Assembly: GCA_021740585.1 (NCBI GenBank)
Contig: JAIOZM010000002.1
Span: forward strand, 31,989 to 95,988
Source: Bacteroidales bacterium
Lineage (GTDB): Bacteria > Bacteroidota > Bacteroidia > Bacteroidales > GCA-2748055
Reading direction: 5' to 3'
Length of the DNA: 64,000 nucleotides
This document shows, one piece after another, positions 40,798 to 57,701 of this stretch. Below the pieces are notes generated by a model, which had not been told where the DNA came from, searched no databases, and saw nothing but the letters and a program-made list of their open reading frames with translations. How positions within the stretch are numbered: position 1 is the first letter of the stretch; each line of letters opens with the position of its first letter. The translations under genes and the position numbers were made by a program.

Positions 40798-41340
40798 ATG
40801 GCCAGACTTCATACTTTCATTATCACTGGAGATGTAGAAGGTGGGAAAAGCCTTTTTTTAAAAGATCTCTCAGAATTTCTAATCCTTTTTGAAAAGAGCC
40901 TGTGCGGTTTTATCAGCCGGGGACAGTTTAATTCTGAAGGACAAAAAGATTTTATCTTAAAAGATATAGCTTCTGATACTGAAATACATCTTGCCAGTAG
41001 AAATGAAATACCTTCCTACCTGCATTTTGGAAATTTCTATTTTAATCCTGTTGCTCTTGAAACAGGAAACCATATTATTCAAACAGCCATCACCTCAGGA
41101 GCAAAAATTTTAATTATTGATGAGATTGGCCCACTCGAACTTGCCGAAGAAATATGGTATAACAGCTTTTGTAAAGCTCTCGCAAATTATAATGGAATCC
41201 TGATTTTTAGCACACGACAACGTTTAATTAACGCGGTGGTAGATAAATTTCATATCAAAGAAGCTTATATTGAAAACATTGAACGAACAAGTGCCAGAAA
41301 AATTGGCGAAGCTATTCAAAGTCTATTAAATACAATATAA
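40798..41340 (+). CDS. THEP1/NTPase_1-like nucleoside-triphosphatase
   Basis: 180 aa; Walker A GDVEGGKS, Walker B-like KILIIDEIGPLEL characteristic of NTPase_1. Confidence 0.75.
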   Translation: MARLHTFIITGDVEGGKSLFLKDLSEFLILFEKSLCGFISRGQFNSEGQKDFILKDIASDTEIHLASRNEIPSYLHFGNFYFNPVALETGNHIIQTAITSGAKILIIDEIGPLELAEEIWYNSFCKALANYNGILIFSTRQRLINAVVDKFHIKEAYIENIERTSARKIGEAIQSLLNTI

Positions 41341-41378
41341 TTAGTTATTGTTGTCCGGTAAACTTATAAAACCTAAAA

Positions 41379-41406
41379 AGATTGCCGCGCTGCGCTCGCA
41401 ATGACT
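41379..41406. repeat. Dispersed palindromic element of the GTCATTGCGAGCGnAGCGnnGCAATC type
   Basis: agattgccgcgctgcgctcgcaatgac; outer arms ATTGC/GCAAT around GCGCTGCGC; in the gap before mobA. Confidence 0.65.
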
Positions 41407-41462
41407 CTGAATGTCAATTGACTACTCTGTATTTTTGCTTTCTTTAAAGCATATTTTATAAA

Positions 41463-42047
41463 ATGGATAAAAAAATAAGTGGTATATTACTCGCAGGTGG
41501 GAAAAGCACGAGAATGGGCGAGGATAAAGCTTTTATGAATTATTTGGGAAAAGATTTGTTTCGATATCCACTTGAAATACTGGAGCAATTCTGCGACGAC
41601 ATACTAATTAGCTCGTCAAATCCCCTTTTTTTAGAAACAAGACACCGGATTTATGCAGATGATATTCCGGGATTAGGCCCGATGGGTGGACTTTATACTT
41701 GTCTTAAAAAAATTAAAAATGAATACTCCATAGTTATAGGTTGTGATACACCTTTAATAGACAGTCGACTAATTTCTGATCTTATTAATAATATTGATCA
41801 ACATTCAATAATTGTTCCGCTAAACGACAAGGGATTTCCGGAACCTCTCGTCGGTATTTATAGAAAATCATGCAGCATTACTATTAATAAATGCATTGAA
41901 AACCAGAATTATAAAATGTCCGGCTTATTAAAACAAGAAGATACTCTTAGCCTTGAACTACCCTATCCGCATTCAGAATTAATCAGACTTTTTTCAAACA
42001 TAAATACTAAAAAAGATTTTCAATCTTTACATGGTGATGAAATTTAA
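41463..42047 (+). CDS. mobA: Molybdenum cofactor guanylyltransferase
   Basis: 194 aa; ISGILLAGGKSTRMGEDKAFMNYLGK, IYADDIPGLGPMGGLYTCL, GCDTPLI. Confidence 0.92.
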   Translation: MDKKISGILLAGGKSTRMGEDKAFMNYLGKDLFRYPLEILEQFCDDILISSSNPLFLETRHRIYADDIPGLGPMGGLYTCLKKIKNEYSIVIGCDTPLIDSRLISDLINNIDQHSIIVPLNDKGFPEPLVGIYRKSCSITINKCIENQNYKMSGLLKQEDTLSLELPYPHSELIRLFSNINTKKDFQSLHGDEI

Positions 42048-43239
42048 TAAAATTGAAAATATTCAACTTAGTGATTCCTGGTTAAAAGCCATTGTTATTG
42101 GAAGTCTGTGGGCTAGTTTTGAAATCATTGTGGGCAGTTTCATTCACAATTTACGCCTCCCCTTTGCCGGAACTTTTTTAAGCGCTTTTGCTGTAATATT
42201 TCTTATATCTTTCTACCAGATCTGGCCTGAAAAGTGGATCATCTTACGGGCAGGTATCATCTGTGCTCTTATGAAAAGCATATCTCCTTCAGCCGTAATA
42301 TTTGGTCCGATGATTGGAATCTTCTCAGAAGCTCTGATTCTTGAATTTACGATTATACTTTTAAGAAAAAACTTATTTTCCTATATGATTGGCGGGGGCC
42401 TTGCTGTTTTTAGTGCTTTACTGCATAAAGCTGTAAATCTAGTATTACTCTATAGCTTCGATCTGGTTAAAGTATATGTCAATTTGGTGAATTATGCTGC
42501 CGGTAAATTTAATCTGCCCCAAAGTTCGCCTCAGCAATTAATAATATTATTGTCGGGAATATATATTATTGCCGGAATATTATCTGCCATTTTAGGCTAC
42601 ATAATTGGGAAAAAAGCCTTAAAACGGAAACCTGAAAGAAAAGTGCACCGATTTGAAAATAATACCAAAGAAGAAAACAATCCCCAATCATATTTCTCCG
42701 GTATTCTTTTAATATTACATGTAGCCATGCTAATTCCGGGTCTGTGGTTTCTATCACAGAATTATAATTTCTTTCTTAAACTTTTAATTATATCCTCATA
42801 TTTATTATTCTGCTTACTGCGTTACAAAAATCTGATATACAGATTGTTAAAACCTCTTTTTTGGACTCAATTACTTATCATTCTTATTCTTGCAGCCCTG
42901 TTTCTTGAAAATTCAAAGCAGGATTTTTCATGGAGCTTTGCCTTATACTCCGGATTTACAATGGTGCTGAGGGCTCTTTTTGTAATAATCTGTTTTTCGG
43001 CAATAAGCAGAGAGATCGCAAATCCTGTGATTAAGAATTTTCTTCTTAAAAAAGGAAATGTTAGCATGAGAATATATTTTGCCCTTCAAACCGGATTTTT
43101 GGCTCTCCCCATAATGATAGAAAATTATTCTGAATTCAAATTCATTTATAAAAAACCACTGCATGCCTTAGTAAACATCGTTTCGGAAGCAGAAAATTGG
43201 CTTGAAAGCATAAAACACCACCAAGGAAGCAATTCATAA
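42031..43239 (+). CDS. Uncharacterised polytopic membrane protein; N-half ECF S-component-like, C-half EcfT/CbiQ-like
   Basis: 402 aa; overlaps the mobA 3' end by 17 nt. N-half GSLWASFEIIVGSFIHNLRLPFAGTFLSAFAVIFLI...RAGIICALMKSISPSAVIFGPMIGIFSEALILEF; C-half FTMVLRALFVIICFSAISREIANPVIKNFLLKKGNVSMRIYFALQTGFLALPIMIENY. Confidence 0.6.
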   Translation: MVMKFNKIENIQLSDSWLKAIVIGSLWASFEIIVGSFIHNLRLPFAGTFLSAFAVIFLISFYQIWPEKWIILRAGIICALMKSISPSAVIFGPMIGIFSEALILEFTIILLRKNLFSYMIGGGLAVFSALLHKAVNLVLLYSFDLVKVYVNLVNYAAGKFNLPQSSPQQLIILLSGIYIIAGILSAILGYIIGKKALKRKPERKVHRFENNTKEENNPQSYFSGILLILHVAMLIPGLWFLSQNYNFFLKLLIISSYLLFCLLRYKNLIYRLLKPLFWTQLLIILILAALFLENSKQDFSWSFALYSGFTMVLRALFVIICFSAISREIANPVIKNFLLKKGNVSMRIYFALQTGFLALPIMIENYSEFKFIYKKPLHALVNIVSEAENWLESIKHHQGSNS

Positions 43240-43410: not shown

Positions 43411-45648
43411 ATGGCAAACCGCAGACAGTTTTTAAAATACTCCGCTCTTGGTATTGGCGGAATGACTATTGGCCTAGGTGCATGCAAATACATAGATGAT
43501 TTCACTGAAATTAAAAATAACCCTGGCGCTCTTAATGTCAACCTTACCCGTACCCCAACCTATTGTGAAATTTGTTTCTGGCAATGTGCCGGTTGGGTTT
43601 ACAAAACGAAGGATGGTCAGATATGGAAAATTGTGGGAAACGATGATGATCAGCACAGTAACGGTCGTTTTTGTCCCCGGGGAACGGGCGGGGTAGGGAT
43701 GTATAATGATGAGGACAGACTTAAAACTCCATTAATACGAACCGGTGAAAGAGGCGAATTTAAGTTCCGCGAAGCTAGTTGGGATGAGGCCTTGGACCTC
43801 GTAGCAGAGAACATGAAAAAAATTGCCGCTGAACATGGCCCGGAATGCATAGCCCTGCTTACTCACGGTTCGGGTGGTAAGTTTTTTGGAGAGACTTTAA
43901 AAGCCTTTGGTTCAGACAATATTGCGGCTCCATCCTATGCACAATGCCGGGGACCTCGTGAAGTTGCATTCACAAATACTTTTGGCGAAGGAGTTGGTTC
44001 TCCTGAAAGAATAGATATCCGTGACACCAAGTGTTTGGTTCTAATAGGATCGCATTTGGGTGAAAATATGCACAACGGTCAGGTTCAGGAAATGTCTGCC
44101 GCTATTGATAAAGGTGCCTCCATTATAACAGTTGACCCAAGATTTTCGGTTGCTGCAGGGAAATCGAAATTCTGGCTGCCAATAAAACCTGCAACAGACC
44201 TGGCTCTTTTGCTTTCCTGGATTCATGTAATAATTTATGAAGATTGGTACGATAAAGAATATGTCGAGAAATATACTTATGGCTTTGAATTTCTCAAAGA
44301 GCATGTAAAAACAATGACTCCCGAATGGGCTTATGGAAAGACAACAATTCAGCCGGATATTATAAGAAAAACGGCGAAAGAAATGGTCAATGCAGCTCCA
44401 TCTGTCATTATACATCCCGGAAGACATGTTACCTGGTATGGTGATGATACACAGCGCATGAGAGCGGTAGCTATATTAAATGCCATTTTGGGTTCATGGG
44501 GGCGCAGAGGCGGTTATTATAATCCCTCAAAAATTAGTGTGCCAAATTATCCTCATCCTGAGTATCCAACGCCAACAAAAACCTGGAGAGATGCCTTCCC
44601 CGGGAAATATAATCTTGTTGATGAAACTCTGGCATCAGGAATTTGTGATGCAACTATTCCGTCCATAGACAGAGCCTGTAATTTTAAAATGTGGTTAGTA
44701 AATGGAACGAATCTGATAAATACACTTCCGGATAACGCAAAAACACTTAGGGCAATTGAAAATCTGGATTTTATCGCCGTTGTTGACACCATGCCAATGG
44801 AAATTGTCAGTTATGCCGATGTTGTTTTACCAGAGTGCACCTATCTTGAAAGATACGATACTCTCCGTGTAAGCCCCCATCGCAAACCATCCATTGCATT
44901 AAGAATGCCCGCAGTAGAGCCAAAATATAATACAAAACCTGCCTGGTGGATGGCAAAGCAACTTGCTGAAAAACTTGGGATTGGTCATTATATACCTTAT
45001 AATACTATAGAGGAAATGCTCGACTGGCAGCTTAAAGAAGCTGGGACATCACTCGAAGAAATGCAAAAAGTAGGAGTTAAAAACTATGAGCGTGATTGGG
45101 ATGACTTATTCTTTACTGAAAATGAAGATGTTGAATTTTTTACCAATACAGGAAAAATTGAATTGTATTCAACAGCATTTGCACAGGAAGGTTTTGATCC
45201 CATGCCAAATTATACAGAGCACCCTCAGCCACCTGAAGGATTTTATCGCCTGAACTATGGAAGAGCCCCAATGCATACTTTTTCCCGTACTGCAAACAAT
45301 CCAAATCTAACCGATTTGATGAGTGAAAATGTTTTATGGGTAAATCCAAAAGTAGCAAGTCTTTGGGGACTTAAGGAAGCACAGCCTGTCTGGTTGATCA
45401 ATCAGGATGGTATTGTGTCGACTTTCCCAATTAAGGTTAGGGTTACTGAAAGGATTCGGTGGGACTCGGTATATATGGTTCACGGTTTTGGACACAACCA
45501 GAAACAATTAACCCGTGCTTACGGGAAGGGAGCCAGTGATACCCAATTAATTAGTCACGTAATGGAAGACCCGATAATGGGAGGAACCGGAATGAGAGGA
45601 AATTTTGTTAGCTTTTTAACTGAAAAACCAGAGGAGGCCGTACTATGA
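43411..45648 (+). CDS. Molybdopterin-dependent oxidoreductase catalytic subunit (PsrA/PhsA-like polysulfide/thiosulfate reductase type), Tat substrate
   Basis: 745 aa; Tat motif NRRQFLKYSALGIGG; 4Fe-4S motif YCEICFWQCAG...FCPRG; YAQCRGPREVA candidate Mo-ligand Cys. Confidence 0.9.
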   Translation: MANRRQFLKYSALGIGGMTIGLGACKYIDDFTEIKNNPGALNVNLTRTPTYCEICFWQCAGWVYKTKDGQIWKIVGNDDDQHSNGRFCPRGTGGVGMYNDEDRLKTPLIRTGERGEFKFREASWDEALDLVAENMKKIAAEHGPECIALLTHGSGGKFFGETLKAFGSDNIAAPSYAQCRGPREVAFTNTFGEGVGSPERIDIRDTKCLVLIGSHLGENMHNGQVQEMSAAIDKGASIITVDPRFSVAAGKSKFWLPIKPATDLALLLSWIHVIIYEDWYDKEYVEKYTYGFEFLKEHVKTMTPEWAYGKTTIQPDIIRKTAKEMVNAAPSVIIHPGRHVTWYGDDTQRMRAVAILNAILGSWGRRGGYYNPSKISVPNYPHPEYPTPTKTWRDAFPGKYNLVDETLASGICDATIPSIDRACNFKMWLVNGTNLINTLPDNAKTLRAIENLDFIAVVDTMPMEIVSYADVVLPECTYLERYDTLRVSPHRKPSIALRMPAVEPKYNTKPAWWMAKQLAEKLGIGHYIPYNTIEEMLDWQLKEAGTSLEEMQKVGVKNYERDWDDLFFTENEDVEFFTNTGKIELYSTAFAQEGFDPMPNYTEHPQPPEGFYRLNYGRAPMHTFSRTANNPNLTDLMSENVLWVNPKVASLWGLKEAQPVWLINQDGIVSTFPIKVRVTERIRWDSVYMVHGFGHNQKQLTRAYGKGASDTQLISHVMEDPIMGGTGMRGNFVSFLTEKPEEAVL

Positions 45649-46178
45649 GATATGCAATGGCAATAGACACTAAAAAATGTGTTGGCTGCTCCGATTGTGT
45701 CGTAGCATGTCAGACCGAAAATAATGTCCCAATCGGATATTGCCGCGATTGGATTGTTGAAGTAAACGATGGTACCTATCCGCAACTGGAAATGGAAATC
45801 CGCTCCGAGCGATGCAATCATTGCGACAATTCACCCTGTGTGCGCTGCTGCCCTACCGGTGCCAGTCATATTGTTGAAGGAGGAATCGTACTGGTTACCG
45901 CCAATGAATGCATAGGCTGTGGAGCTTGCATTTCATCCTGCCCTTACGATGCTAGATATCCTCATCCTGACGGGCATGTTGACAAATGTACTTTTTGTTT
46001 TCACCGCGTGGGAAAAGGACAACAACCTGCATGTGTAGAAGTTTGCCCAACAAATTGTATGTATTTTGGAGATCTTGACGATCCAAAAAGCGAGGTTTCA
46101 GAGATTTTAAAAATCCGAAAATATAAAACGCTTATCCCTCAAGCCGGGACAGAGCCCCAGGTTTATTATCTCATTTAA
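45645..46178 (+). CDS. 4Fe-4S electron-transfer subunit (PsrB/NrfC-like)
   Basis: 177 aa; CVGCSDCVVACQTENNVP, CNHCDNSPCVRCCP, CIGCGACISSCPYDARY; overlaps the upstream gene by 4 nt. Confidence 0.93.
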   Translation: MRYAMAIDTKKCVGCSDCVVACQTENNVPIGYCRDWIVEVNDGTYPQLEMEIRSERCNHCDNSPCVRCCPTGASHIVEGGIVLVTANECIGCGACISSCPYDARYPHPDGHVDKCTFCFHRVGKGQQPACVEVCPTNCMYFGDLDDPKSEVSEILKIRKYKTLIPQAGTEPQVYYLI

Positions 46179-46195: not shown

Positions 46196-47137
46196 ATGAG
46201 AGAAGAAATTATTACAAGCGGCAGGATGAATGACAAAATTGATCCTTTCCTTAATATCTGGCACTGGGAGATCCCACTATATCTGTTTTTGGGAGGACTT
46301 GCGGCCGGTATTTTATTTTTTGCTGCCTTCTACAGCATTCGCGGAAAAGAAAAGGAGTTTCCATCCGCCATTGAGAAAGCTCCTTTAATTGTTCCGGCCT
46401 TATTAATTATTGGGTTAATCTCATTATTTTTAGACTTAAATCACAAACTCTATTTCTGGAGATTATACACAACTATTCGTTTAGAGTCACCAATGTCGTG
46501 GGGAGCCTGGGTGTTGATGATAATAACTCCTTTATCTTTTATCTGGGCTGCTATTCATTTAAAGAAAGTCTACCCTAACTTTAAATGGCCATTTCCCTGG
46601 CTTGATATAGTAGAGGAATTCTTTATAAAGTACAAAAAAGTGTTAGCCTGGAGTATGTTGGTATCGGCCCTTATTCTTGGTATGTACACCGGAATTCTCC
46701 TTTCTGCATTTAATGCACGTCCTCTGTGGAATACCTCTATATTGGGACCACTGTTTCTCGTATCCGGATTATCGACCGGTGCCGCCACCAATATACTGTT
46801 TGCTAAAACTCACCTGGAAAAGAAAACATTCTCTACCATTGACCTGGCTCTGATTGGAATAGAACTTTTTCTGATTGTTCACCTTTTCATGGGTCTTCTG
46901 GCAAGCACTCAGGTACAAATTGAGGCTGCAAACCTTTTTCTGGGCGGACCATATACAGCGGTATTCTGGGTATTGGTAGTGCTAATTGGAATGATAATAC
47001 CCGCTGTTATAGAAATACTTGAACTCTGGAAGTTTAAAATTCCTCTGTTAATACCTGCAATAATGGTATTATTTGGTGGGGTGTTGCTTAGATTTATTAT
47101 TACTTTTGCCGGCCAAACCAGCAGATGGCTATATTGA
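46196..47137 (+). CDS. nrfD: NrfD/PsrC-type quinol-interacting membrane subunit
   Basis: 313 aa polytopic; WHWEIPLYLFLGGLAAGILFFAAFYSI. Confidence 0.93.
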   Translation: MREEIITSGRMNDKIDPFLNIWHWEIPLYLFLGGLAAGILFFAAFYSIRGKEKEFPSAIEKAPLIVPALLIIGLISLFLDLNHKLYFWRLYTTIRLESPMSWGAWVLMIITPLSFIWAAIHLKKVYPNFKWPFPWLDIVEEFFIKYKKVLAWSMLVSALILGMYTGILLSAFNARPLWNTSILGPLFLVSGLSTGAATNILFAKTHLEKKTFSTIDLALIGIELFLIVHLFMGLLASTQVQIEAANLFLGGPYTAVFWVLVVLIGMIIPAVIEILELWKFKIPLLIPAIMVLFGGVLLRFIITFAGQTSRWLY

Positions 47138-47159: not shown

Positions 47160-47687
47160 ATGACAACAACTAAATTAAAATCAAAAACCTATATGAATCC
47201 ATACCTGGCAGGAGTTTTGCTGGGTTTAGTTTTACTAACCGCCAACTTTATCTCCGGGAGGGGTCTTGGAGCAAGTGGTGCTGTTAAAAGTGTTATTGTA
47301 ACAGCTGTTGATGCTGTTGCCCCGGGTCATGCAGAAAATGCTCCATTTTATGTTGAATATCTTGAAGCTCATCCAAAACCTATGAAATCATGGTTGGTTT
47401 TTGAAATGCTTGGCGTATTGGTTGGTGGATTCCTCTCCGGTGCCCTCGCAGGAAGATTAAAGTTTAAGGTTGAACATTCTCCAAAAATCACTTCGAGAAG
47501 AAGACTTATTTTTGCTTTAGCAGGAGGTATTCTTTTCGGTTTTGGATCCCAACTGGGACGTGGATGCACAAGCGGATCTGCCCTTAGCGGAATGGCTGTA
47601 TTATCTTTGGGAGGAATAATAACTATGGCTGCCATATTTGGAACTGGCTATGCACTGGCATATTTTGTTCGAAAAAACTGGATTTGA
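47160..47687 (+). CDS. YeeE/YedE-family sulfur transport protein, half 1
   Basis: GSQLGRGCTSGSALSGMAVLSLGGIITMAAIFGTGY; ATG at 47160 preferred over the track start 47073 inside nrfD. Confidence 0.88.
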   Translation: MTTTKLKSKTYMNPYLAGVLLGLVLLTANFISGRGLGASGAVKSVIVTAVDAVAPGHAENAPFYVEYLEAHPKPMKSWLVFEMLGVLVGGFLSGALAGRLKFKVEHSPKITSRRRLIFALAGGILFGFGSQLGRGCTSGSALSGMAVLSLGGIITMAAIFGTGYALAYFVRKNWI

Positions 47688-47771: not shown

Positions 47772-48362
47772 ATGGGTCCTTTAGCAGCAAACGAAATAAT
47801 TTCACAAGATACTAATCTGATCTTTGCCTTTCTTATTGGTATAGGTTTCGGATTTGTTTTAGAAGGTGCCGGCTTTTCATCGAGTCGTAAGCTGGCAGGC
47901 GTGTTTTACGGTTACGACACCGTTGTGCTTAAAGTGTTTTTTACAGCAGGAATTACCGCTATGATAGGCTTATTGTTTTTCAGTCTTTTTGGCTGGATAG
48001 ATCTAAGTTTAATATATATTAATCCCACATTCCTTTATTCAGCCATTGCCGGCGGTGTAATCATGGGGGCCGGATTTATTCTTGGAGGTTTCTGTCCCGG
48101 CACAAGTTTTTGTGCTGCTTCCATTGGTAAAATTGATGCCTTAGTATTTATTGGCGGACTCTTAATCGGAATATTAATCTTTGGCGAAGGATATGCACTC
48201 TGGGAAGGTTTTTATAATGCTAAATTTTTAGGCATACCAAAAATCAGCGAGTCCCTTGGTCTTAAAGATGGTCTGATGGCTCTAATTATCGTGCTGGTTG
48301 CATTCGCCATGTTCTGGGTTGGAGAATGGGCTGAAAAGAAATTTCCAAGAGAAGAATATTAA
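47772..48362 (+). CDS. YeeE/YedE-family sulfur transport protein, half 2
   Basis: 196 aa; FVLEGAGFSSSRKLAGVFYGYD, MGAGFILGGFCPGTSFCAASIGKIDALVFIGG. Confidence 0.9.
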   Translation: MGPLAANEIISQDTNLIFAFLIGIGFGFVLEGAGFSSSRKLAGVFYGYDTVVLKVFFTAGITAMIGLLFFSLFGWIDLSLIYINPTFLYSAIAGGVIMGAGFILGGFCPGTSFCAASIGKIDALVFIGGLLIGILIFGEGYALWEGFYNAKFLGIPKISESLGLKDGLMALIIVLVAFAMFWVGEWAEKKFPREEY

Positions 48363-48438: not shown

Positions 48439-49056
48439 ATGAATTCAAGAATTTTACTGGCTGGTTTCCTTATCCCGATGGCAATGATTATCGCAGCCGT
48501 GCCATCGAATAAAACAAAACAATATAAACTCACGGCTAACCAACTCCTTCAGGAAGCTGTAAGCTACGAGCCTTATATTCATCCTGATAATGTAGCTGAT
48601 ATGCTGGTTCAACAGGATCCTTCACTTCAATTGATCGATGTGCGCACACCGGATGAATTTGATAAATTCAGTTTGCCGGGAGCCATAAACATCCCACTTT
48701 CCGAACTACTCGCCGACCAATATGTAGACCTGCTTGATCAGGGGGTTAAGATGAATGTTTTTTATTCTAATGGCACCTTGAAATCGAATGAAGCTTGGAT
48801 GATTACAAGGCAATTAGGTTATTCTAATAATTATGTCCTTCAGGGTGGATTAAATTACTGGGCAGAAACCATAATTAATCCTGTTCCCCCAGCTTCAACA
48901 AGTCCTGATGAAGAAATTGCCAAATACAATTTCCGCAAAGGTGCTTCAATGGCTTTGGGTGGTGATGTAGATACAAAATCGGCTGAAACTGCTGTACCTG
49001 CTGTACCAGTAATCACAGCCAAGCAAGCTAAAAAAAGAGTTGCTGGTGGTTGCTAG
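48439..49056 (+). CDS. Exported/membrane-anchored rhodanese-like domain protein ending in Gly-Gly-Cys
   Basis: LIDVRTPDEFDKFSLPGAINIPLSEL, MNVFYSNGTLKSNEAWMITRQLGYSNNYVLQGGLNYW, C-terminus AKKRVAGGC; start ATG 48439 preferred. Confidence 0.88.
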   Translation: MNSRILLAGFLIPMAMIIAAVPSNKTKQYKLTANQLLQEAVSYEPYIHPDNVADMLVQQDPSLQLIDVRTPDEFDKFSLPGAINIPLSELLADQYVDLLDQGVKMNVFYSNGTLKSNEAWMITRQLGYSNNYVLQGGLNYWAETIINPVPPASTSPDEEIAKYNFRKGASMALGGDVDTKSAETAVPAVPVITAKQAKKRVAGGC

Positions 49057-49357: not shown

Positions 49358-50830
49358 CTAATCGACTAAAGGCATATCATAAACCCTGTCTTTTTTATTC
49401 TCGCTTCTCTTATTTGGATTTCCCATCATAAGATTTACTCCTACCTTAAGGTTTAGCATTCGTGCCTCCGGAGGCCAAAAGTATATAGACGGACCTGTAT
49501 CTGTAAGAATATAAATATTAAGGGGTAAGAGCTTCAGAGCTACTCCTAAACCCAGATTTTTATACGTTCCGTCGATAATTGAAAAGGAGAAACTTGTACT
49601 TAACAATCGAATAGGATAAATATTTGTTGAAAAAGTAAATTGCTGACGTATATCACCCCCAAAGAAATCTGTCCTCGATAAAGCACCAAAGCTAACAAAT
49701 CGTGCAGGATATAATGCAGCACCAACAAACAACTTAGTGGGAAGTGCTGTTCTGTAGGTCGCATCAGTTGCTGTAAAATTATCGAAAGTATTAATCAGAC
49801 TATCCTGAAAGTCATCAAAGAAATTTTCATTGGCAATATCTACCGGCACGCCTTCGAAGGAATAGCTGGAGGTGTTAATTATATTAATCATCCCATCTTT
49901 CCATTTAATCCCGCCAAAATCTACAAGACTGGCATTTACCTGCAACCAATCAAAAACTCTGTAATCGGCCCCAATATCTATACCAAATCCCATATTCTTT
50001 GTATTAAGCACCATACCTGTAATTTCTTGTACGTCTGGCGTTTGAATGTCCATATTTTCGAAATTCTCTGTTATTGTTGCAATAGGAACTGCTGTTGCGT
50101 AGGCTACATAGTCGGAAAGATATGGCCCTGATGTCTGAACGTTAATATTATTCTCAACAAGGATAGTTTCTGTGCTGGTTTCAAGATGTATATTCAGATC
50201 ATTAGTATTAACATTTGCCTGTCCAAATAAGAGTTTTCCTCTAACACCTATTGTTAATTTGTCACCGATCTTTTGTGAAACGCCTAATGACATTTCATTG
50301 TACAGAGACATATCCATATCAAGGCCCATATTAAATATTTCCCCGTCTGCAGGTCCAATAATCGGTAATCGGAAAAAGTCCCTGGAATAGTCGAAGCCCA
50401 GATTCAGCCTTTCTCTGACATCTATTGTAATGAATGTTTTATCAGACCGGAATCCCATAGAAAAAAGGCTGGTTGAGACTTCTGTGTTTAATGAATTCAT
50501 ATCGTCCAATCGATTCAGGAATTCTTCACCTCCAATGGCCGCTGCTGAGGTTGGATGCAGAAAGTTAACTAAAGAATCGAGATCTGGGTCATATTGAAAT
50601 ATATCCTCCAATCCGAATTCGGTTTCAACTTGCAATTTCAAAGGAGAGACCCCGGGAATACCAAAGAAGAAATTACAATCGGGTTGAATGGCAGGATTTA
50701 TCTGATATACCTGTGGAATACCTCTCATATAATACATGGTATTTACATCCTGGGAATACATATTTACTGATATCGCAAATAGAGATAGCAGTAAAATTAT
50801 ACTTCTGAGTCTTTTGATAAGTAATTGCAT
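49358..50830 (-). CDS. DUF5723-like outer membrane beta-barrel protein
   Basis: 490 aa; signal peptide, MYYMRGIPQVYQINPAIQPDCNFFFGIPGVSPLKLQ. Confidence 0.75.
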   Translation of the reverse strand: MQLLIKRLRSIILLLSLFAISVNMYSQDVNTMYYMRGIPQVYQINPAIQPDCNFFFGIPGVSPLKLQVETEFGLEDIFQYDPDLDSLVNFLHPTSAAAIGGEEFLNRLDDMNSLNTEVSTSLFSMGFRSDKTFITIDVRERLNLGFDYSRDFFRLPIIGPADGEIFNMGLDMDMSLYNEMSLGVSQKIGDKLTIGVRGKLLFGQANVNTNDLNIHLETSTETILVENNINVQTSGPYLSDYVAYATAVPIATITENFENMDIQTPDVQEITGMVLNTKNMGFGIDIGADYRVFDWLQVNASLVDFGGIKWKDGMINIINTSSYSFEGVPVDIANENFFDDFQDSLINTFDNFTATDATYRTALPTKLFVGAALYPARFVSFGALSRTDFFGGDIRQQFTFSTNIYPIRLLSTSFSFSIIDGTYKNLGLGVALKLLPLNIYILTDTGPSIYFWPPEARMLNLKVGVNLMMGNPNKRSENKKDRVYDMPLVD

Positions 50831-50841
50831 AATGTATAATA

Positions 50842-52506
50842 TTAAAGGTCTCTGGAATTTATAATAAAGGTCGACTCCATTTTTACTTTGAAGTAAATGT
50901 TGTAATAATCGAAGAATTTCACAAAATCTCCATTTTCAACACCGGTTGTGTTGAGAGAGGCACGCACAAACAAATATTTTGTGGTTTTAATTTTCTCAAG
51001 TCTATCTGTGTCAAAGATTACTTTTTTGGTATACTCAACCGGCTCCGCTACCTTGCCATCACCATCCAGAGTTGGCGAAAGAAGAAATGCATCATCAACA
51101 AACATTGAATCCAGCATGTTGAAAAGCTCATCCTTGAAAAATAATTGCATTCCTACTTCCAGTGGTAAGCCGTTTCTTACATCCAATTCTAAAGCGAAGG
51201 TTTCTATAAAATCTACATTCGTTCCTATCTGATCTTCAAAATCAAAATCGATGGTGTCTTCTAAGGCAAATTCATCTGCTTTTAAATGAATTGGCAGAAC
51301 AATCTCTACCCCTACTTCCATAATGCTTGAGTCTGTAATAAAATTATAGGAATCGCCTGGCCCCAATGGATTTGAAACTGCTGAAACCGTATAATAAAAT
51401 TTCCTGGGTAAGGTTTCAATTGCCTCTGCAATATTAGTATTTGTTCTGTCAATCGATATGGGCGTCTCAACCGAAGTCCCTATTGAATCAAGTACCGGGG
51501 CATTAATACTAACAGGATTCCCGGACGTAAACACTATTGGGGTTGTAACATCATTTATTGAAGAATAGGTACTAACGTCTTTAAGTTCCACCTGAACCGG
51601 AACTCCGTAAGAATTATCGACCGTTAATACTAATTGAGGATCATAAAAAGATATCAGCCCGTCAATTTCTGTATTGTCAAATAATTCAATGGTAATATCT
51701 CCATCCTCAATCATTAGATCATACATACCAAAATATCCAAAAGCAGAGTTGTATTCAATATTAATAAAACTCATTGTGATGGAACAATAATCGGTAGCTC
51801 CGACAGGATTCCCCGATTTAATTAAAAACAAATCCGTTTCCAAAGGCAAAAATGTTTTTCCGGGTACCGAATTCTCGAAATAAATAACACAATTGCTTAG
51901 GTTAATAATATAGGTAGTATCAAAGTCCCCATTTGCTGAGCTAATTTGGATTAGGTCTGAAAAAGATTCTCCATCTTCCAGAAATACACTATCGGAAGAC
52001 ATCTCAAGAAGACCTTTATGTTTAAAAGTAGATATTACCTTTATTTCCAAATCCATCGATTTGATACGAGCACTATCCAATCTTTCCTCATTATCAAATT
52101 TAAAATCCCCTTGTATTCTTTTTTCAAAAAGAACTGTGTCTTCTAATGGATCCATCCAATTAGGCTCATTTATAATGTCTGCCTCAATATAAATTTCAGA
52201 GAAGTCCTGATCCGGAACATCAAAAACGTCCTTTGCGGAATAAGAAAACAGACTTTGCCCATAGGAAATATACAGTAAGCTATCGTTGTCGTATTGCTTC
52301 ACATAACCAGTGCTGTCAAACTCTGTTAAGATATCTTTAAGAGATAACTCCCCATAAGCAATAGGCGTGGCCACGCTGGGGGTTAGAACAAACTCCTCTG
52401 AAATTTTATTAAAATCCCAACCATCATCGAGGCATGAATTCAGACCTGCCAGAGCTCCGGCCAAAAAAATGCCTGTAAAAATCCTGTGTTTCAGTTTTGC
52501 TTTCAT
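50842..52506 (-). CDS. Hypothetical lipoprotein
   Basis: 554 aa; lipobox LAGLNSCLDDGWDFNKISEEFVLTPSVATPIAYGELSLKDIL; adjacent to the DUF5723-like gene. Confidence 0.7.
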   Translation of the reverse strand: MKAKLKHRIFTGIFLAGALAGLNSCLDDGWDFNKISEEFVLTPSVATPIAYGELSLKDILTEFDSTGYVKQYDNDSLLYISYGQSLFSYSAKDVFDVPDQDFSEIYIEADIINEPNWMDPLEDTVLFEKRIQGDFKFDNEERLDSARIKSMDLEIKVISTFKHKGLLEMSSDSVFLEDGESFSDLIQISSANGDFDTTYIINLSNCVIYFENSVPGKTFLPLETDLFLIKSGNPVGATDYCSITMSFINIEYNSAFGYFGMYDLMIEDGDITIELFDNTEIDGLISFYDPQLVLTVDNSYGVPVQVELKDVSTYSSINDVTTPIVFTSGNPVSINAPVLDSIGTSVETPISIDRTNTNIAEAIETLPRKFYYTVSAVSNPLGPGDSYNFITDSSIMEVGVEIVLPIHLKADEFALEDTIDFDFEDQIGTNVDFIETFALELDVRNGLPLEVGMQLFFKDELFNMLDSMFVDDAFLLSPTLDGDGKVAEPVEYTKKVIFDTDRLEKIKTTKYLFVRASLNTTGVENGDFVKFFDYYNIYFKVKMESTFIINSRDL

Positions 52507-52525
52507 TGTAAAATATATTAATCCA

Positions 52526-55198
52526 TTACTTTACGGAATAATTATACAAAAAGTTGTCTTTATTACTCACTAATAAATTGAATCTGTCCTTCAATCCGGG
52601 AAACGAGGATATGCTGAACAGAGCCGAACCGTTCAAGGGAAACCCATTATAAAGAGTTCCATCACTATTATAGAGATATATTTTACCCGTTTTGGTTGCA
52701 ACAAGGCCAATTTTTTTATCGTTTGTACTAAATTCATAAACAACGGGTTGGGAATTAATGGTTTCGGGTATTGTAGCTGAAAACAGTAAGTCTTTATCCG
52801 AATTATAAACCAATAATTCATTATCATTTGTGAATATAAACTCTTTTTTTCTATCCCCCACAATATTTTCAGCCAAAAAAAAGTGATCTGCCCGGAAATC
52901 ATTATCCATTACTTTTTCTACTTTTTCGTTAAAATAGAAATAAAACACACTTCCTTTTTCATCTGAGGCTATTACTTTTTCTTTTCCTGTACCTGATGTT
53001 TTATCTATAAAAACCTGGTTCCTGTCTGAAAAATGAATCTGCCGTTCAGGCTTAATACGTTTTTTACCTTTTCTATCCAGAAAATAAATCTGGTATGAAT
53101 CTTTAGCAATTATAAAATCTTTGTCTTCTATTTTGGTATGAACAACCGACTTATTAATTATATGGTCTGTAGTGCGGAATTTCCAACCTGAGACAACATT
53201 TCCACTACGATCGTACATAACAATCTGCTTATTACTTAATGGAAGTGAAATTCTCCAATCGCCTGAATTATCATAATCAAAAAGACTATTACCTGCTGTA
53301 GCATCAGCTATGAATTCTATAGGAAATTTCTCCACAGAATTCCCGTTTCTATCAATCAGATATAGTTTTTTAACTGTATTAAAAAGGTATTGTAACTTTC
53401 CGTTATTATAATAATCAACCTGAATAATGTCGCTTATTATTGGGCCATCAGATTTTATTTTCCATAAAATATCTCCTGAATTTCCAATTAGATAAACATT
53501 TCTATCTTCATCCTGAATAAATATTTCTTTATCCTTATTATTATAATTTCTTACTATAGCCGGTTTAAAAACGGATATTGTATCGAGTTTTCTTTTCCAA
53601 ACTGTATTTACGGTTTCACTCCGAACTCCGGTATAATTTAAAAAAACTCTGAAATAATGCAGACTATCAGATCGGGTACTCTGGAAGCTGAGTGCATTAA
53701 ATTTACTCCAGCTGTCTCTTGTCTCAGTAATGAATTTCAGGGCATCTGGCCTTAAATTCAATGTTAAATAATCCAGATAAGTAGCTGGATTAACATAAGA
53801 AAAAACGTTTGAATTACTGGCAAAATTATCTGACAGATTATTAAATGACCTGTCGTTTGACAAATTGTTCCCGAGTTCATTTTGCTGAATAAGGTATAAA
53901 ATATCATTTTGTGTTTCAGCAAAGATCAAACTGTTATCATAAATAATAAAGGCCCCATATTCAGTATCGGGATTAAAACCGATCATTTCCAAAATAGTGT
54001 TGGAATGGATGGTAGCGAATGGGAATATCTTTTCTCCAATTCTAATTTCCTTAATCTCCGGGGAATATTCTGAGCCCAGAATTTCTTTTGCTTCATTTGT
54101 AAGAAAATCCCACATATTTCCTCCGGAAATCAGACTTACAAAGGCATATTTACTATAATCCTCACCCCTTTTACAAATTAGACTTGCTGAATTAGACTTC
54201 GATAATTTCTCAAATCCGGACACAAATAATTTTTCAGCTTCACTTTTAACTTCTGCATTTAACAAACTTGGTTGTCCCTTCATTTCACTAAAGTAAACAG
54301 GACCTGAGGGAAAAAGGTGGTATAATGATTTTCCCTTCAGTTCAGGCATTTTAAAATGCAGGTAGGTTGATGACTTCGAATTTTCAAAACTTGTAAAGCC
54401 ATTAAGAATTAATTTATCAGGATAAATTTCCAGATCGAGCACTGAAGCTGTGAATAGTTCATTCAGAGGAATCAGTAAATCACTTTCCAAAACTTTCCCG
54501 GTTAATTTTGAGAGCTCGGTATAATTGATATATACGTTTGCAGGAACATCTTTACCTGCTGTTTCAATAATTCTTTTATACGCGGGGCTTTCAAAGGTTT
54601 TTTCTTCTGCTCCGGAGGCTCTGACCGATTCCTTAATCAATTCCAATGAGGAGGAAACAGCAAATGCTCCCTTGAATTCATAAAAAAACAGATCCGGGAA
54701 GATATCCTCCTCAGCATTTTCTATCTGGTAAACCGTTTGATTTTCAAACTTAGATTTTAAAACTTGCCGTCCTTTGCCAATTACCTTCACCAGCACATCT
54801 GTGGCTTTTATTCCATGACAGCCAAAGCTTGCCAGAAATTCATACCTATCGCTAATTTTATGAACCGAAATAAAAGCATCATTTGTAAAAAGGACTTCCA
54901 GTTCTTTATTCATATTCCTGAGGCTATCGAAATCTATCAGAAATTTATCAAACTTGTGAAAATTAGTATATTTCTCGTTTAGCTTAAATTCCTTCCAAAT
55001 TTCATTCCTTTCCGTTATACTTTCCTCAATCTTAAGGAGATTATCCGTTTTAAGGCAAAGTATAAAACTCTCAGGAATGAAGTCGCCCGGATTATTATCT
55101 GTAAAGCTCTCTGTTCTCAACCACAAAATTCCAAGGACTGCTGCCACCAGAATCAAAGAAATACTTAATATTAATATGATTCGTCTTATTGAGTTCAT
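52526..55198 (-). CDS. Large membrane-anchored protein, DUF3352-like N-terminal region and beta-propeller-like C-terminal region
   Basis: 890 aa; single N-terminal TM, FIPESFILCLKTDNLL..., repeated Y(D/L)xxGN/DRxGxxV motifs in the C-half. Confidence 0.6.
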   Translation of the reverse strand: MNSIRRIILILSISLILVAAVLGILWLRTESFTDNNPGDFIPESFILCLKTDNLLKIEESITERNEIWKEFKLNEKYTNFHKFDKFLIDFDSLRNMNKELEVLFTNDAFISVHKISDRYEFLASFGCHGIKATDVLVKVIGKGRQVLKSKFENQTVYQIENAEEDIFPDLFFYEFKGAFAVSSSLELIKESVRASGAEEKTFESPAYKRIIETAGKDVPANVYINYTELSKLTGKVLESDLLIPLNELFTASVLDLEIYPDKLILNGFTSFENSKSSTYLHFKMPELKGKSLYHLFPSGPVYFSEMKGQPSLLNAEVKSEAEKLFVSGFEKLSKSNSASLICKRGEDYSKYAFVSLISGGNMWDFLTNEAKEILGSEYSPEIKEIRIGEKIFPFATIHSNTILEMIGFNPDTEYGAFIIYDNSLIFAETQNDILYLIQQNELGNNLSNDRSFNNLSDNFASNSNVFSYVNPATYLDYLTLNLRPDALKFITETRDSWSKFNALSFQSTRSDSLHYFRVFLNYTGVRSETVNTVWKRKLDTISVFKPAIVRNYNNKDKEIFIQDEDRNVYLIGNSGDILWKIKSDGPIISDIIQVDYYNNGKLQYLFNTVKKLYLIDRNGNSVEKFPIEFIADATAGNSLFDYDNSGDWRISLPLSNKQIVMYDRSGNVVSGWKFRTTDHIINKSVVHTKIEDKDFIIAKDSYQIYFLDRKGKKRIKPERQIHFSDRNQVFIDKTSGTGKEKVIASDEKGSVFYFYFNEKVEKVMDNDFRADHFFLAENIVGDRKKEFIFTNDNELLVYNSDKDLLFSATIPETINSQPVVYEFSTNDKKIGLVATKTGKIYLYNSDGTLYNGFPLNGSALFSISSFPGLKDRFNLLVSNKDNFLYNYSVK

Positions 55199-55292
55199 TA
55201 ATTGGTACTTAAAACAATTGGTTTTATTAAACTTATTTATTTTTTGCGATTTGGAATAATTTTTGATGTTATTCGCATCTAACTAACATCCT

Positions 55293-57701
55293 ATGAAAAT
55301 TCTTCTGTTTTCTATTGCCTTCATTTTATTGGAGACATTCTGTGTAAACGCACAAAACATTTCAGTTTTAAACGGTTCTTCCCATGAGCCGGTGAGTAAT
55401 GTTGCCCTATATAATTCCGAAAGAAATATTGCAACACTAAGCGATGCAAATGGTATAGCAAATATCAGCATTTTCAGGGAGAACGACAGTATTTTTTTTC
55501 AACACCCCTCTTTTATCTCAATAGGGCTTTTAAAAAGCGATTTATCGGGCAGAAAAAGGATCTTATTAAGTAAAAAAATAATACTGATCGACGAATATGT
55601 TATCTCGGCTACCAAATCGAGGGAAAACAAGAAAGATGTCGCCTACCAGATAGATGTATTAGACAAATTACAGCTAATGTATAATACCGGACAAACTGCT
55701 GCCGATATACTTTTATCCTCAGGAAATCTGGTGATTCAAAAATCACAGGGAGGAGGGGGAAGTCCAATTTTAAGAGGAATGGAGGCAAACCGTGTCTTAC
55801 TTGTTGTTGATGGTGTTCGGCTAAATAATGCTATATACAGAAGCGGTCATTTACAAAATTCAATAACACTCGATAATTCTATACTCGACCGGGTTGAAGT
55901 TACCTTTGGACCTACATCTCTGATTTATGGAAGTGATGCTCTGGGCGGTGTTATTCATTATTATACAAAAGAACCCGTTTTTAGTCCGGATAGCCTGAAT
56001 TATAATTTTAATGCCCAGGCGTTCACTAGTTATTCCTCAGCAAATTCAGGAAAAATTGCCCATTTCAATATGAACAACGGATTTAAAAATATTGCTTTTC
56101 TAAGTTCTGTTTCTTATAAAGACCTTGGCGATGTAAGGATGGGAAAATTCAAAAATCCTTTTTACGGCGATTTTGGTGAAATAACCCATTATGTTGCAAA
56201 TGTAGATAACAAGGACCTTACTATGGAAAACCCTGATCCTTATACACAGCTGAATACAGGCTATTCACAATTGGATTTATTACAAAAAATCAAGTATTCT
56301 CCTTCCAGGTATTATGATTGGGTATTTAATTTTCAATTCTCATCCTCTTCTGAAATCGACCGTCTTGATATGCTCAATGATTATTCCGGCGACGATCTGG
56401 CCTATGCAGAGTATTACTACGGTCCCCAAAACCGTTTGTTAACCTCATTAAAATCTGTGATTAAAAAAGACAATGCCTTGTTTACGAACATGACTTCCAT
56501 TCTGGCATATCAGCGAATTGATGAAGACAGATTTACCCGAAAATTTGATGCTGCTGAACGAATGGTTCAAAGGGAAGATGTTGACGTATATAGTCTGAAT
56601 ATCGATTTATTAAAATTAATCAATTCTCAAAACAGAATTAATTATGGACTTGAAGTAAATCATAATTCCCTTGGATCAAGTGCGTATTACGAGAATATTA
56701 TAAATTTAGACAGGGGAATAGCTGATACCCGATATCCTGATGGAGGGAGCTCAACCTGGTCGTATTCTGCTTACGGTAATTACAAATGGTTTTTAAATCA
56801 AAAATTTATATTCTCCACAGGGGCACGCTATCATTACGGACAATATCACTCCGATTTCCTGGCTGAAGGTATGGGGGCTTTGCTCCCTTATAGTTATATA
56901 GACATCAACAATGGAGCTCTCACAGGTAGTTTAAGTATGGTTTATTCTCCGGGGAATAACTGGAAAATTCAAACCATAGCTTCCACTGGTTTTCGCAATC
57001 CCAATATAGATGATTACGGAAAAGTACGGGCTAAAAACAACCTTGTTACCGTTCCTAATTCTGATCTTAAACCGGAGTATAGCTATAATTTCGAACTCGG
57101 ATTCTCTAAAACTATTGAAGGTTATATTCAATTAAATGCCACCGCTTACTATACTTTCCTGACTGATGCAATTGTAAGGACAGATTATAGCTTAAATGGT
57201 TCTGATAGTTTAGAATACGACGGCGATATGTATAAAATAATAACAAATTCTAACGCTTCTTCAGCCTATATTCGTGGAATCTCGATGAATCTAATCTCAG
57301 ATCTTAACTCTAATTTGAATTTTAAATCTACCCTGAACTTCACTCAAGGATTGAATAAAACTGAGAATGTTCCCCTGGGACATATTCCTCCGATATTTGG
57401 AAGGACTACCATAAAATATAAAATGAAGAATAATATTACTGAAATGTTTGTTGATTATAATGGATGGAAGAAAATGGAAGACATTAATCCATTTGGTGAA
57501 GATAATGAGGAAGAAGCCACAGAATATGGTTGGCCGGGCTGGTACACCCTAAACCTTCGGACAAGCTTCCAGTTGAACGAACTATTCCTGCTTCAAATTG
57601 CCGTGGAAAATATTTTTGACAACTTTTACAAGCCATTCGCGTCGGGCATCGCCGGACCGGGAAGAAATTTTATAGTTACCCTGAGAGCGAATATTAATTA
57701 A
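55293..57701 (+). CDS. TonB-dependent receptor (CirA/HmuR-like)
   Basis: 802 aa; plug ILRGMEANRVLLVVDGVRLNNAIYRSGHLQNSITLDNSILDRVEVTFGPTSLIYGSDALGGVIHYYTK; C-terminal barrel strand. Confidence 0.93.
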   Translation: MKILLFSIAFILLETFCVNAQNISVLNGSSHEPVSNVALYNSERNIATLSDANGIANISIFRENDSIFFQHPSFISIGLLKSDLSGRKRILLSKKIILIDEYVISATKSRENKKDVAYQIDVLDKLQLMYNTGQTAADILLSSGNLVIQKSQGGGGSPILRGMEANRVLLVVDGVRLNNAIYRSGHLQNSITLDNSILDRVEVTFGPTSLIYGSDALGGVIHYYTKEPVFSPDSLNYNFNAQAFTSYSSANSGKIAHFNMNNGFKNIAFLSSVSYKDLGDVRMGKFKNPFYGDFGEITHYVANVDNKDLTMENPDPYTQLNTGYSQLDLLQKIKYSPSRYYDWVFNFQFSSSSEIDRLDMLNDYSGDDLAYAEYYYGPQNRLLTSLKSVIKKDNALFTNMTSILAYQRIDEDRFTRKFDAAERMVQREDVDVYSLNIDLLKLINSQNRINYGLEVNHNSLGSSAYYENIINLDRGIADTRYPDGGSSTWSYSAYGNYKWFLNQKFIFSTGARYHYGQYHSDFLAEGMGALLPYSYIDINNGALTGSLSMVYSPGNNWKIQTIASTGFRNPNIDDYGKVRAKNNLVTVPNSDLKPEYSYNFELGFSKTIEGYIQLNATAYYTFLTDAIVRTDYSLNGSDSLEYDGDMYKIITNSNASSAYIRGISMNLISDLNSNLNFKSTLNFTQGLNKTENVPLGHIPPIFGRTTIKYKMKNNITEMFVDYNGWKKMEDINPFGEDNEEEATEYGWPGWYTLNLRTSFQLNELFLLQIAVENIFDNFYKPFASGIAGPGRNFIVTLRANIN

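Follow-up and report, generated by a model that had tools for sequence, protein, structure and literature searches.

Gene organization of the locus

The window analysed here, that is, the whole stretch of 64,000 nucleotides from a Bacteroidales bacterium, contains an operon that runs in the order molybdopterin subunit, FeS subunit, NrfD, two YeeE halves and a rhodanese-fold protein ending in cysteine (Table 1). We refer to this last protein and its homologues as tailed rhodaneses. The preliminary description had placed it at the end of a polysulfide/thiosulfate-type operon, behind two YeeE/YedE genes. This held, and the reductase trio was confirmed, with two corrections: the two YeeE genes encode a single channel in complementary halves, and the best solved relative of the reductase is 2vpw.

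Table 1. Coordinates of the operon genes and of the parts of the tailed rhodanese, in window positions
Feature	Position	Strand	Basis or remark
Molybdopterin catalytic subunit, PsrA/PhsA-like	43411..45648	+	PF00384/PF01568/PF04879
4Fe-4S electron-transfer subunit, PsrB-like	45645..46178	+	Pfam Fer4 family
NrfD/PsrC-like membrane subunit	46196..47137	+	PF03916, E 4.7e-47
YeeE half, C-terminal half of Sulf_transp, PmpA/YedE-like, RGCTSG Cys	47160..47687	+	PF04143 positions 170-308
YeeE half, N-terminal half of Sulf_transp, PmpB/YedE-like, GGFCPGT Cys	47772..48362	+	PF04143 positions 11-157
Terminal-cysteine rhodanese-fold protein	48439..49056	+	205 aa, ATG start, end ...KKRVAGGC and stop
N-terminal hydrophobic helix, residues 3-20	48445..48498	+	AlphaFold helix
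Rhodanese-fold domain, residues 37-148	48547..48882	+	PF00581; VIA match to 3tp9_B
Ser110 codon TCT	48766..48768	+	Canonical catalytic Cys position
Flexible basic tail, residues 173-205	48955..49053	+	Low pLDDT, no secondary structure; basic charge of relatives' tails
Gly203-Gly204-Cys205, invariant terminal cysteine	49045..49053	+	Column conservation in 149 members

The best PDB match of the molybdopterin subunit is 2vpw_A (E 7.6e-192, residues 3-735), deposited as a thiosulfate reductase and belonging to the Thermus Psr complex. The criterion of full-length similarity to a Psr/Phs-like enzyme is met, and in this the trio adjoining the tailed rhodanese is like the known Psr/Phs molybdoenzymes; to our knowledge, neither a YeeE pair nor a tailed rhodanese occurs in known Psr/Phs operons. 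The match to NCBIfam PhsA (E 6e-140, 467.6 bits) stays below the cut-off of 694. An RR motif near the N-terminus of the subunit may point to Tat export, an inference made from sequence alone.

Among relatives of the two YeeE halves, the GC.SG cysteine of the C-terminal type is kept in 151/151 (147 GCTSG and 4 variants) and the CPG[TAS] cysteine of the N-terminal type in 154/154. The pair meets the criterion for a PmpA/PmpB-type system, namely complementary halves with one conserved Cys each. It is similar to PmpA/PmpB, that is YedE1/YedE2, in which two half-channels with one essential Cys each import zero-valent sulfur (PMC10812762); the split-half arrangement has been described both for PmpA/PmpB (PMC11582611) and for YedE1E2 (PMC10812762). 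What differs is that here a terminal-Cys rhodanese is encoded beside the halves or fused with one of them, and that Psr/Phs or octaheme reductases are linked to them.

Two further blocks flank the operon. Upstream of the reductase (40798-43239) lie genes for an NTPase_1 protein and a MobA-like NTP transferase, probably involved in molybdenum cofactor maturation, and for a membrane protein without a Pfam match that recurs in the operons of relatives. Downstream (49358-57698) there are a DUF5723 protein, two large proteins and a TonB-dependent receptor, a block conserved beside the operon in three other genomes (G001, G009 and G011).

A rhodanese fold that has lost its loop cysteine

The only Pfam match of the tailed rhodanese is PF00581 (E 4.1e-14, residues 53-143); neither SoxY (PF13501) nor DsrC families appear in its Pfam result. 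Structure comparison with 3tp9_B gives a VIA Z-score of 15.3 and an rmsd of 1.9 A over 100 residues. In the AlphaFold model (45 relatives) the rhodanese domain is confident, with pLDDT mostly >90, and the tail from about residue 173 has no secondary structure, with pLDDT of about 57-70. The N-terminal helix is inferred to be a signal peptide or, with better likelihood, a membrane anchor.

The translation places Ser110 at the catalytic Cys position, in the loop VFYSNGT, and in an alignment to solved rhodaneses the FYCASGKR loop of 3d1p pairs with FYSNGTLK. The sole cysteine of the protein is Cys205, its last residue. Both observations had been made in the preliminary description, and both held. 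As to the criteria of the rhodanese superfamily, the fold and PF00581 are satisfied and the catalytic loop Cys is not; both the rhodanese fold and the missing loop Cys are shown. Rhodaneses lacking the loop Cys are known as such. By contrast, we found no description of a rhodanese with a cysteine relocated to the terminus in the open-access literature searched.

Two explanations could be set aside. A sequencing error, named at the outset as a possible refutation, fails: the homologue in a genome of the same genus (G001), at 89% identity, likewise combines this Ser with a terminal Cys, and close relatives within the family agree. Selenocysteine at the terminus is excluded by the codons, which are TGT or TGC.

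The terminal cysteine is a family trait

We searched 61 relatives, 395 genomes of the phylum and named genomes, plus neighbourhoods taken afterwards. The family rhodanese profile gave 183 matches, all distinct and complete, spread across Bacteroidota, with Labilibaculum, Marinifilum, Carboxylicivirga and Mariniphaga among the taxa represented. Cysteine is the last or penultimate residue in 172 of them. The remaining 11 are double or canonical rhodaneses, one tail-less fusion and one truncated gene: eight of the double or canonical rhodaneses carry a loop-Cys motif, a double rhodanese at locus L048 shows none under the pattern applied, the YeeE-rhodanese fusion at the same locus has no tail, and the gene at L221 is truncated. 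The tailed matches form 52 single-linkage clusters at 50% identity and 27 at 40%. Their terminal Cys codon is TGT in 87 cases and TGC in 85, and the mix indicates that the residue is kept at the amino-acid level. Among other ORFs of the loci collected by the time of the family alignment (below), only 15 of 1530 have Cys as their final or penultimate residue. Set against 172/183, this means that the terminal cysteine is not due to chance.

The family alignment has 149 members and represents an earlier stage than the collection of 183 matches. Its last three columns, G-G-C, are conserved at 87, 99 and 100%, the linker columns shown are poorly conserved (down to 30-81%), and the terminal Cys is better conserved than the remainder of the protein. 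At the loop position, 112 members have Ser, 14 Gly, 13 Ala and 6 Cys, so that Ser, Gly or Ala replaces the loop Cys in 139/149; in 128/149 no other Cys is present in the domain and linker. The preliminary description had proposed aligning homologues adjacent to YeeE genes as a check on terminal GGC conservation and loop Cys loss, and this check was passed, the terminal Cys being invariant.

It had also specified what would count as refutation: homologues in the same context that keep the loop Cys and lack a terminal Cys. As a guard against circular selection, a second set of genomes was chosen through the YeeE half instead of the rhodanese. In the loci examined in this way the family rhodanese beside or fused to YeeE has a Cys ending (GGC, GGCA, GGCS, GGLCS, EGC or MGC; even the distant one of genome G195 ends ...KVANEGC), with two exceptions. 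One is the truncated gene of L221; the other is L219, a weakly matching PmpAB-type cluster whose multidomain protein is canonical and has a loop Cys.

What had been noticed in a single gene is therefore a family trait and not an oddity, and it is very likely that the cysteine has been relocated to a conserved, functional terminal position. It should be kept in mind that these counts come from related genomes and do not represent independent events, that many of the sequences come from metagenome-assembled genomes, and that our data on occurrence essentially concern Bacteroidota, with hardly any coverage beyond the phylum. A search of plasmids returned only generic rhodaneses with <40% identity.

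The terminal variants seen (GGC, GGCA, GGCS, GGLCS, EGC, MGC, DGC and FQC) bear on the possibility that the protein is a carrier of the ThiS/QbsE type, in which GGC would lose its Cys and the exposed diglycine would be converted to a thiocarboxylate. The GGC and GGCx ends do recall the end of QbsE, which terminates in GGCF. However, it is the Cys that is conserved and not the diglycine, as the first Gly reaches only 87% and EGC, MGC, DGC, FQC and GGLCS ends occur; the fold is that of a rhodanese and not a beta-grasp; the neighbouring genes inspected yielded neither an E1-like enzyme nor a protease; and ATP-dependent activation is unlikely in the periplasm. We therefore give this explanation very little weight.

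The basic GGC tail might instead be a signal for processing, anchoring or modification (lipidation, sortase-like attachment or a cross-link) and no sulfur site at all. In favour of this, the tail resembles C-terminal sorting signals in having a short conserved end behind a basic, variable linker, and the tails match within a genome. Against it, the ending is not general. The genome of the window has 42 places with a GGC-then-stop pattern (30 in a reversed control), and among the 30 of these 42 that we examined, only in the tailed rhodanese gene does the pattern close an ORF of >=50 aa in frame; 12 of the 42 places remained outside this check. In the collected loci just one further ORF ends in GGC, and it encodes a rhodanese from within the same operon. 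In addition, copies fused to YeeE, which are already membrane proteins, still keep the tail. A general C-terminal sorting signal was accordingly rejected, and the explanation as a whole appears highly improbable.

Linkage to YeeE and variety of operons

The linkage of tailed rhodaneses to YeeE halves is clear: an N-terminal-type half lies within 1.7 kb of 129/172, and in 31/172 the two are fused. The fusions retain a hydrophobic segment ahead of the rhodanese domain. Measured from a conserved Phe, the arm has a median length of 32 residues in fusions versus 42 in stand-alone proteins. In 97% of the stand-alone proteins the last 20 residues carry a net positive charge; a few tails are acidic instead of basic. 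The AlphaFold model of a YeeE-rhodanese fusion is poor in its membrane part (pLDDT mostly 30-50), and we make no claim about docking.

Four kinds of operon were seen among the collected loci. The first combines a Psr/Phs-type reductase with YeeE and the tailed rhodanese. The second resembles it and has a MerR-like regulator, with EGC tails in most cases. In the third, there are a cytochrome b and an octaheme cytochrome of the tetrathionate-reductase family (TIGR04315, above cut-off), and the tailed rhodanese is usually fused to a YeeE half. The fourth consists of a YeeE pair and a mercaptopyruvate-sulfurtransferase-like rhodanese without a reductase; no reductase is found near YeeE and the tailed rhodanese at L097-L099 and L213. 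The reductase thus changes between operons, and YeeE and the tailed rhodanese persist.

Individual loci illustrate this variety. An octaheme cytochrome, cytochrome b, a YeeE half and a GGC-ending YeeE-rhodanese fusion are found at L047:7100-12821, L084:7665-11634 and L032:15315-17686; the TIGR04315 match is in L047 and L084. In this type of operon the octaheme enzyme replaces the molybdoenzyme. At L097:5302-7590, L098:6891-9520 and L099:4898-7503, a YeeE pair and a rhodanese ending in LVRMGC or LMRMGC stand beside the mercaptopyruvate-sulfurtransferase-like rhodanese.

YeeE may not be strictly required, or may not be the sole partner, in view of two arrangements. Genome G356 (99% complete), in which Sulf_transp was not detected, has a Psr trio and two EEGGC-tailed rhodaneses (L094:7-5200), the genes lying at a contig end. 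At L150:8236-10522 the tailed rhodanese gene directly adjoins a membrane-protein gene on one side and a TatC-like gene on the other; reductase and YeeE genes are missing beside it, which could reflect either a real deletion or a misassembly.

The same context speaks to whether the terminal Cys serves metal binding, or delivery of copper or selenium, instead of sulfur. A terminal Cys could be a ligand, and certain relatives of YedE bear the name of selenium transporters (NCBIfam TIGR04112, a family matched here only weakly and below cut-off). On the other hand, the tail has no further conserved ligand (His, Cys or Met), and the gene context is one of sulfur-oxyanion or polysulfide reduction. 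We regard this possibility as remote.

A putative swinging-arm sulfur carrier

Taken together, our preferred reading is that the tailed rhodanese is a periplasmic, membrane-anchored sulfur carrier with a Cys-terminated flexible arm on a rhodanese scaffold. We consider this likely (probability roughly 0.72), in the absence of biochemical data. The rhodanese domain, catalytically retired, would act as the docking body, from which a positively charged flexible arm of 30-40 residues would extend with the working Cys, that of the GGC, at its tip. The terminal thiol would take up sulfane sulfur as a persulfide, or possibly a thiosulfonate, and the arm would shuttle it between partners whose genes lie next to its own: on one side the Psr/Phs-type reductase, or in its place the octaheme cytochrome, and on the other the two-half YeeE channel. 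The preliminary description had inferred that sulfur is carried on the flexible GGC tail; this is supported, with the qualification that flexibility rests on the low-confidence AlphaFold tail and that sulfur carriage is still an inference. Likewise inferred are the periplasmic side, the sulfur load and persulfide chemistry, which partners give and receive the sulfur, and the direction in which it moves. The location is deduced from the hydrophobic N-terminal segment together with the Tat-like motif on the reductase. Import is favoured as the direction because YedE1E2, whose Cys residues are essential for zero-valent sulfur import (PMC10812762), imports and does not export such sulfur. With a reductase next door, it is conceivable that the arm also presents S-S bonds for reduction.

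The closest parallel is SoxY of SoxYZ, in which a Gly-flanked carrier Cys (GGCGG) sits on a C-terminal peptide swinging arm (PMC6067878); this criterion is met by the tailed rhodanese as a sequence feature only. SoxY has been proposed to feed the YeeE-type channel SoxT, and handing sulfur from its Cys along the channel cysteines has been considered conceivable (PMC11582611). The tailed rhodanese differs in lacking PF13501, in having its GGC at the very end, and in its basic linker and membrane anchor. SoxY (PF13501) was not found in the bacterium's own genome, which is 92.5% complete, and is present in 1/60 genomes of relatives. With GlpE, PspE and the periplasmic Sud of Wolinella the protein shares a single rhodanese domain (PF00581), whereas these have a loop Cys and the tailed rhodanese has Ser in the loop and its sole Cys at the terminus. 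The criterion for Sud, which also serves polysulfide reductase, is a polysulfide-binding loop Cys, and it is not met (FYSNGT). DsrC/TusE carries sulfur on the penultimate Cys of a mobile C-terminal arm; the likeness lies in this near-terminal Cys, with the load of the tailed rhodanese being inferred. DsrC/TusE is cytoplasmic and its fold is unrelated to that of the tailed rhodanese.

Carrier arms ending in Gly and Cys are thus known from SoxY; it is the combination, its Bacteroidota-wide conservation and the fusion to YeeE that appear to be undescribed. If our reading is correct, the trick of SoxY would have evolved convergently on a rhodanese fold, and a function could be given to many "rhodanese-like" proteins without a catalytic Cys in Bacteroidota. 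Import of sulfur into the cytoplasm of sulfur oxidizers has been described as poorly understood (PMC11582611). A putative carrier fused to a half-channel, with one invariant arm Cys, makes sulfur hand-off directly testable.

Shared tails within operons

At 13 loci there are two or three tailed proteins, which gave 11 comparable within-operon pairs. Over the last 12 residues the mean identity is 75% within operons versus 37% between genomes, and the bodies of same-operon tailed proteins are only about 26% identical. At L039 a tail ...KKKKQAAAGGCE is common to three proteins, at L040 ...EEEEGGC is found on two, and at L041 a glycine-rich GGGGGGC is found on three. Tail DNA of same-operon paralogues often differs at synonymous sites; at L094 its last 27 bases are identical. 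The pairs are few and the invariant GGC is shared by all, so we only tentatively suggest that the tail is a shared, exchangeable module. The pattern might arise because a single partner recognizes every tail in an operon, or because recombination has repeatedly exchanged tails; our data do not separate the two.

Multiple tails per operon also bear on a rival role for the terminal Cys, that of a thiol-redox site which would form a reversible disulfide with a Cys of YeeE or the reductase, or with a second tail, and so release the sulfur of another carrier. A single Cys suits mixed disulfides, and the two to three tailed proteins of an operon could pair. Furthermore, a DsbA-like protein with a carboxy-terminal CxxC, encoded beside soxT1A, has been proposed to free SoxYZ sulfane sulfur (PMC11582611). 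Nevertheless, the tailed proteins have no CxxC and no thioredoxin fold but a rhodanese body, and a long arm with a single Cys at its end is more like carriers (SoxY) than oxidoreductases. We consider this role unlikely.

Returning to the sulfur-carrier reading, a bolder version of it can be formulated, toward which we lean with only a slight margin of confidence. Tailed rhodaneses would form a Bacteroidota-wide class of carriers on a rhodanese scaffold, in which the reactive Cys has moved from the loop to the end of the tail and sulfur would pass directly into the two-half YeeE channel, the reductase or both; exchange of tails between paralogues would then give all carriers of an operon the same key. 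Some tails occur on double rhodaneses with an intact loop Cys (L039, L041 and L047), which could perhaps load the tail; double rhodaneses beside the operons of L049, L091 and L104 are without the operon tail. Near-identical tails on different proteins of one operon can be seen at L039:5011-7445, L041:2903-5594 and L047:7100-10600.
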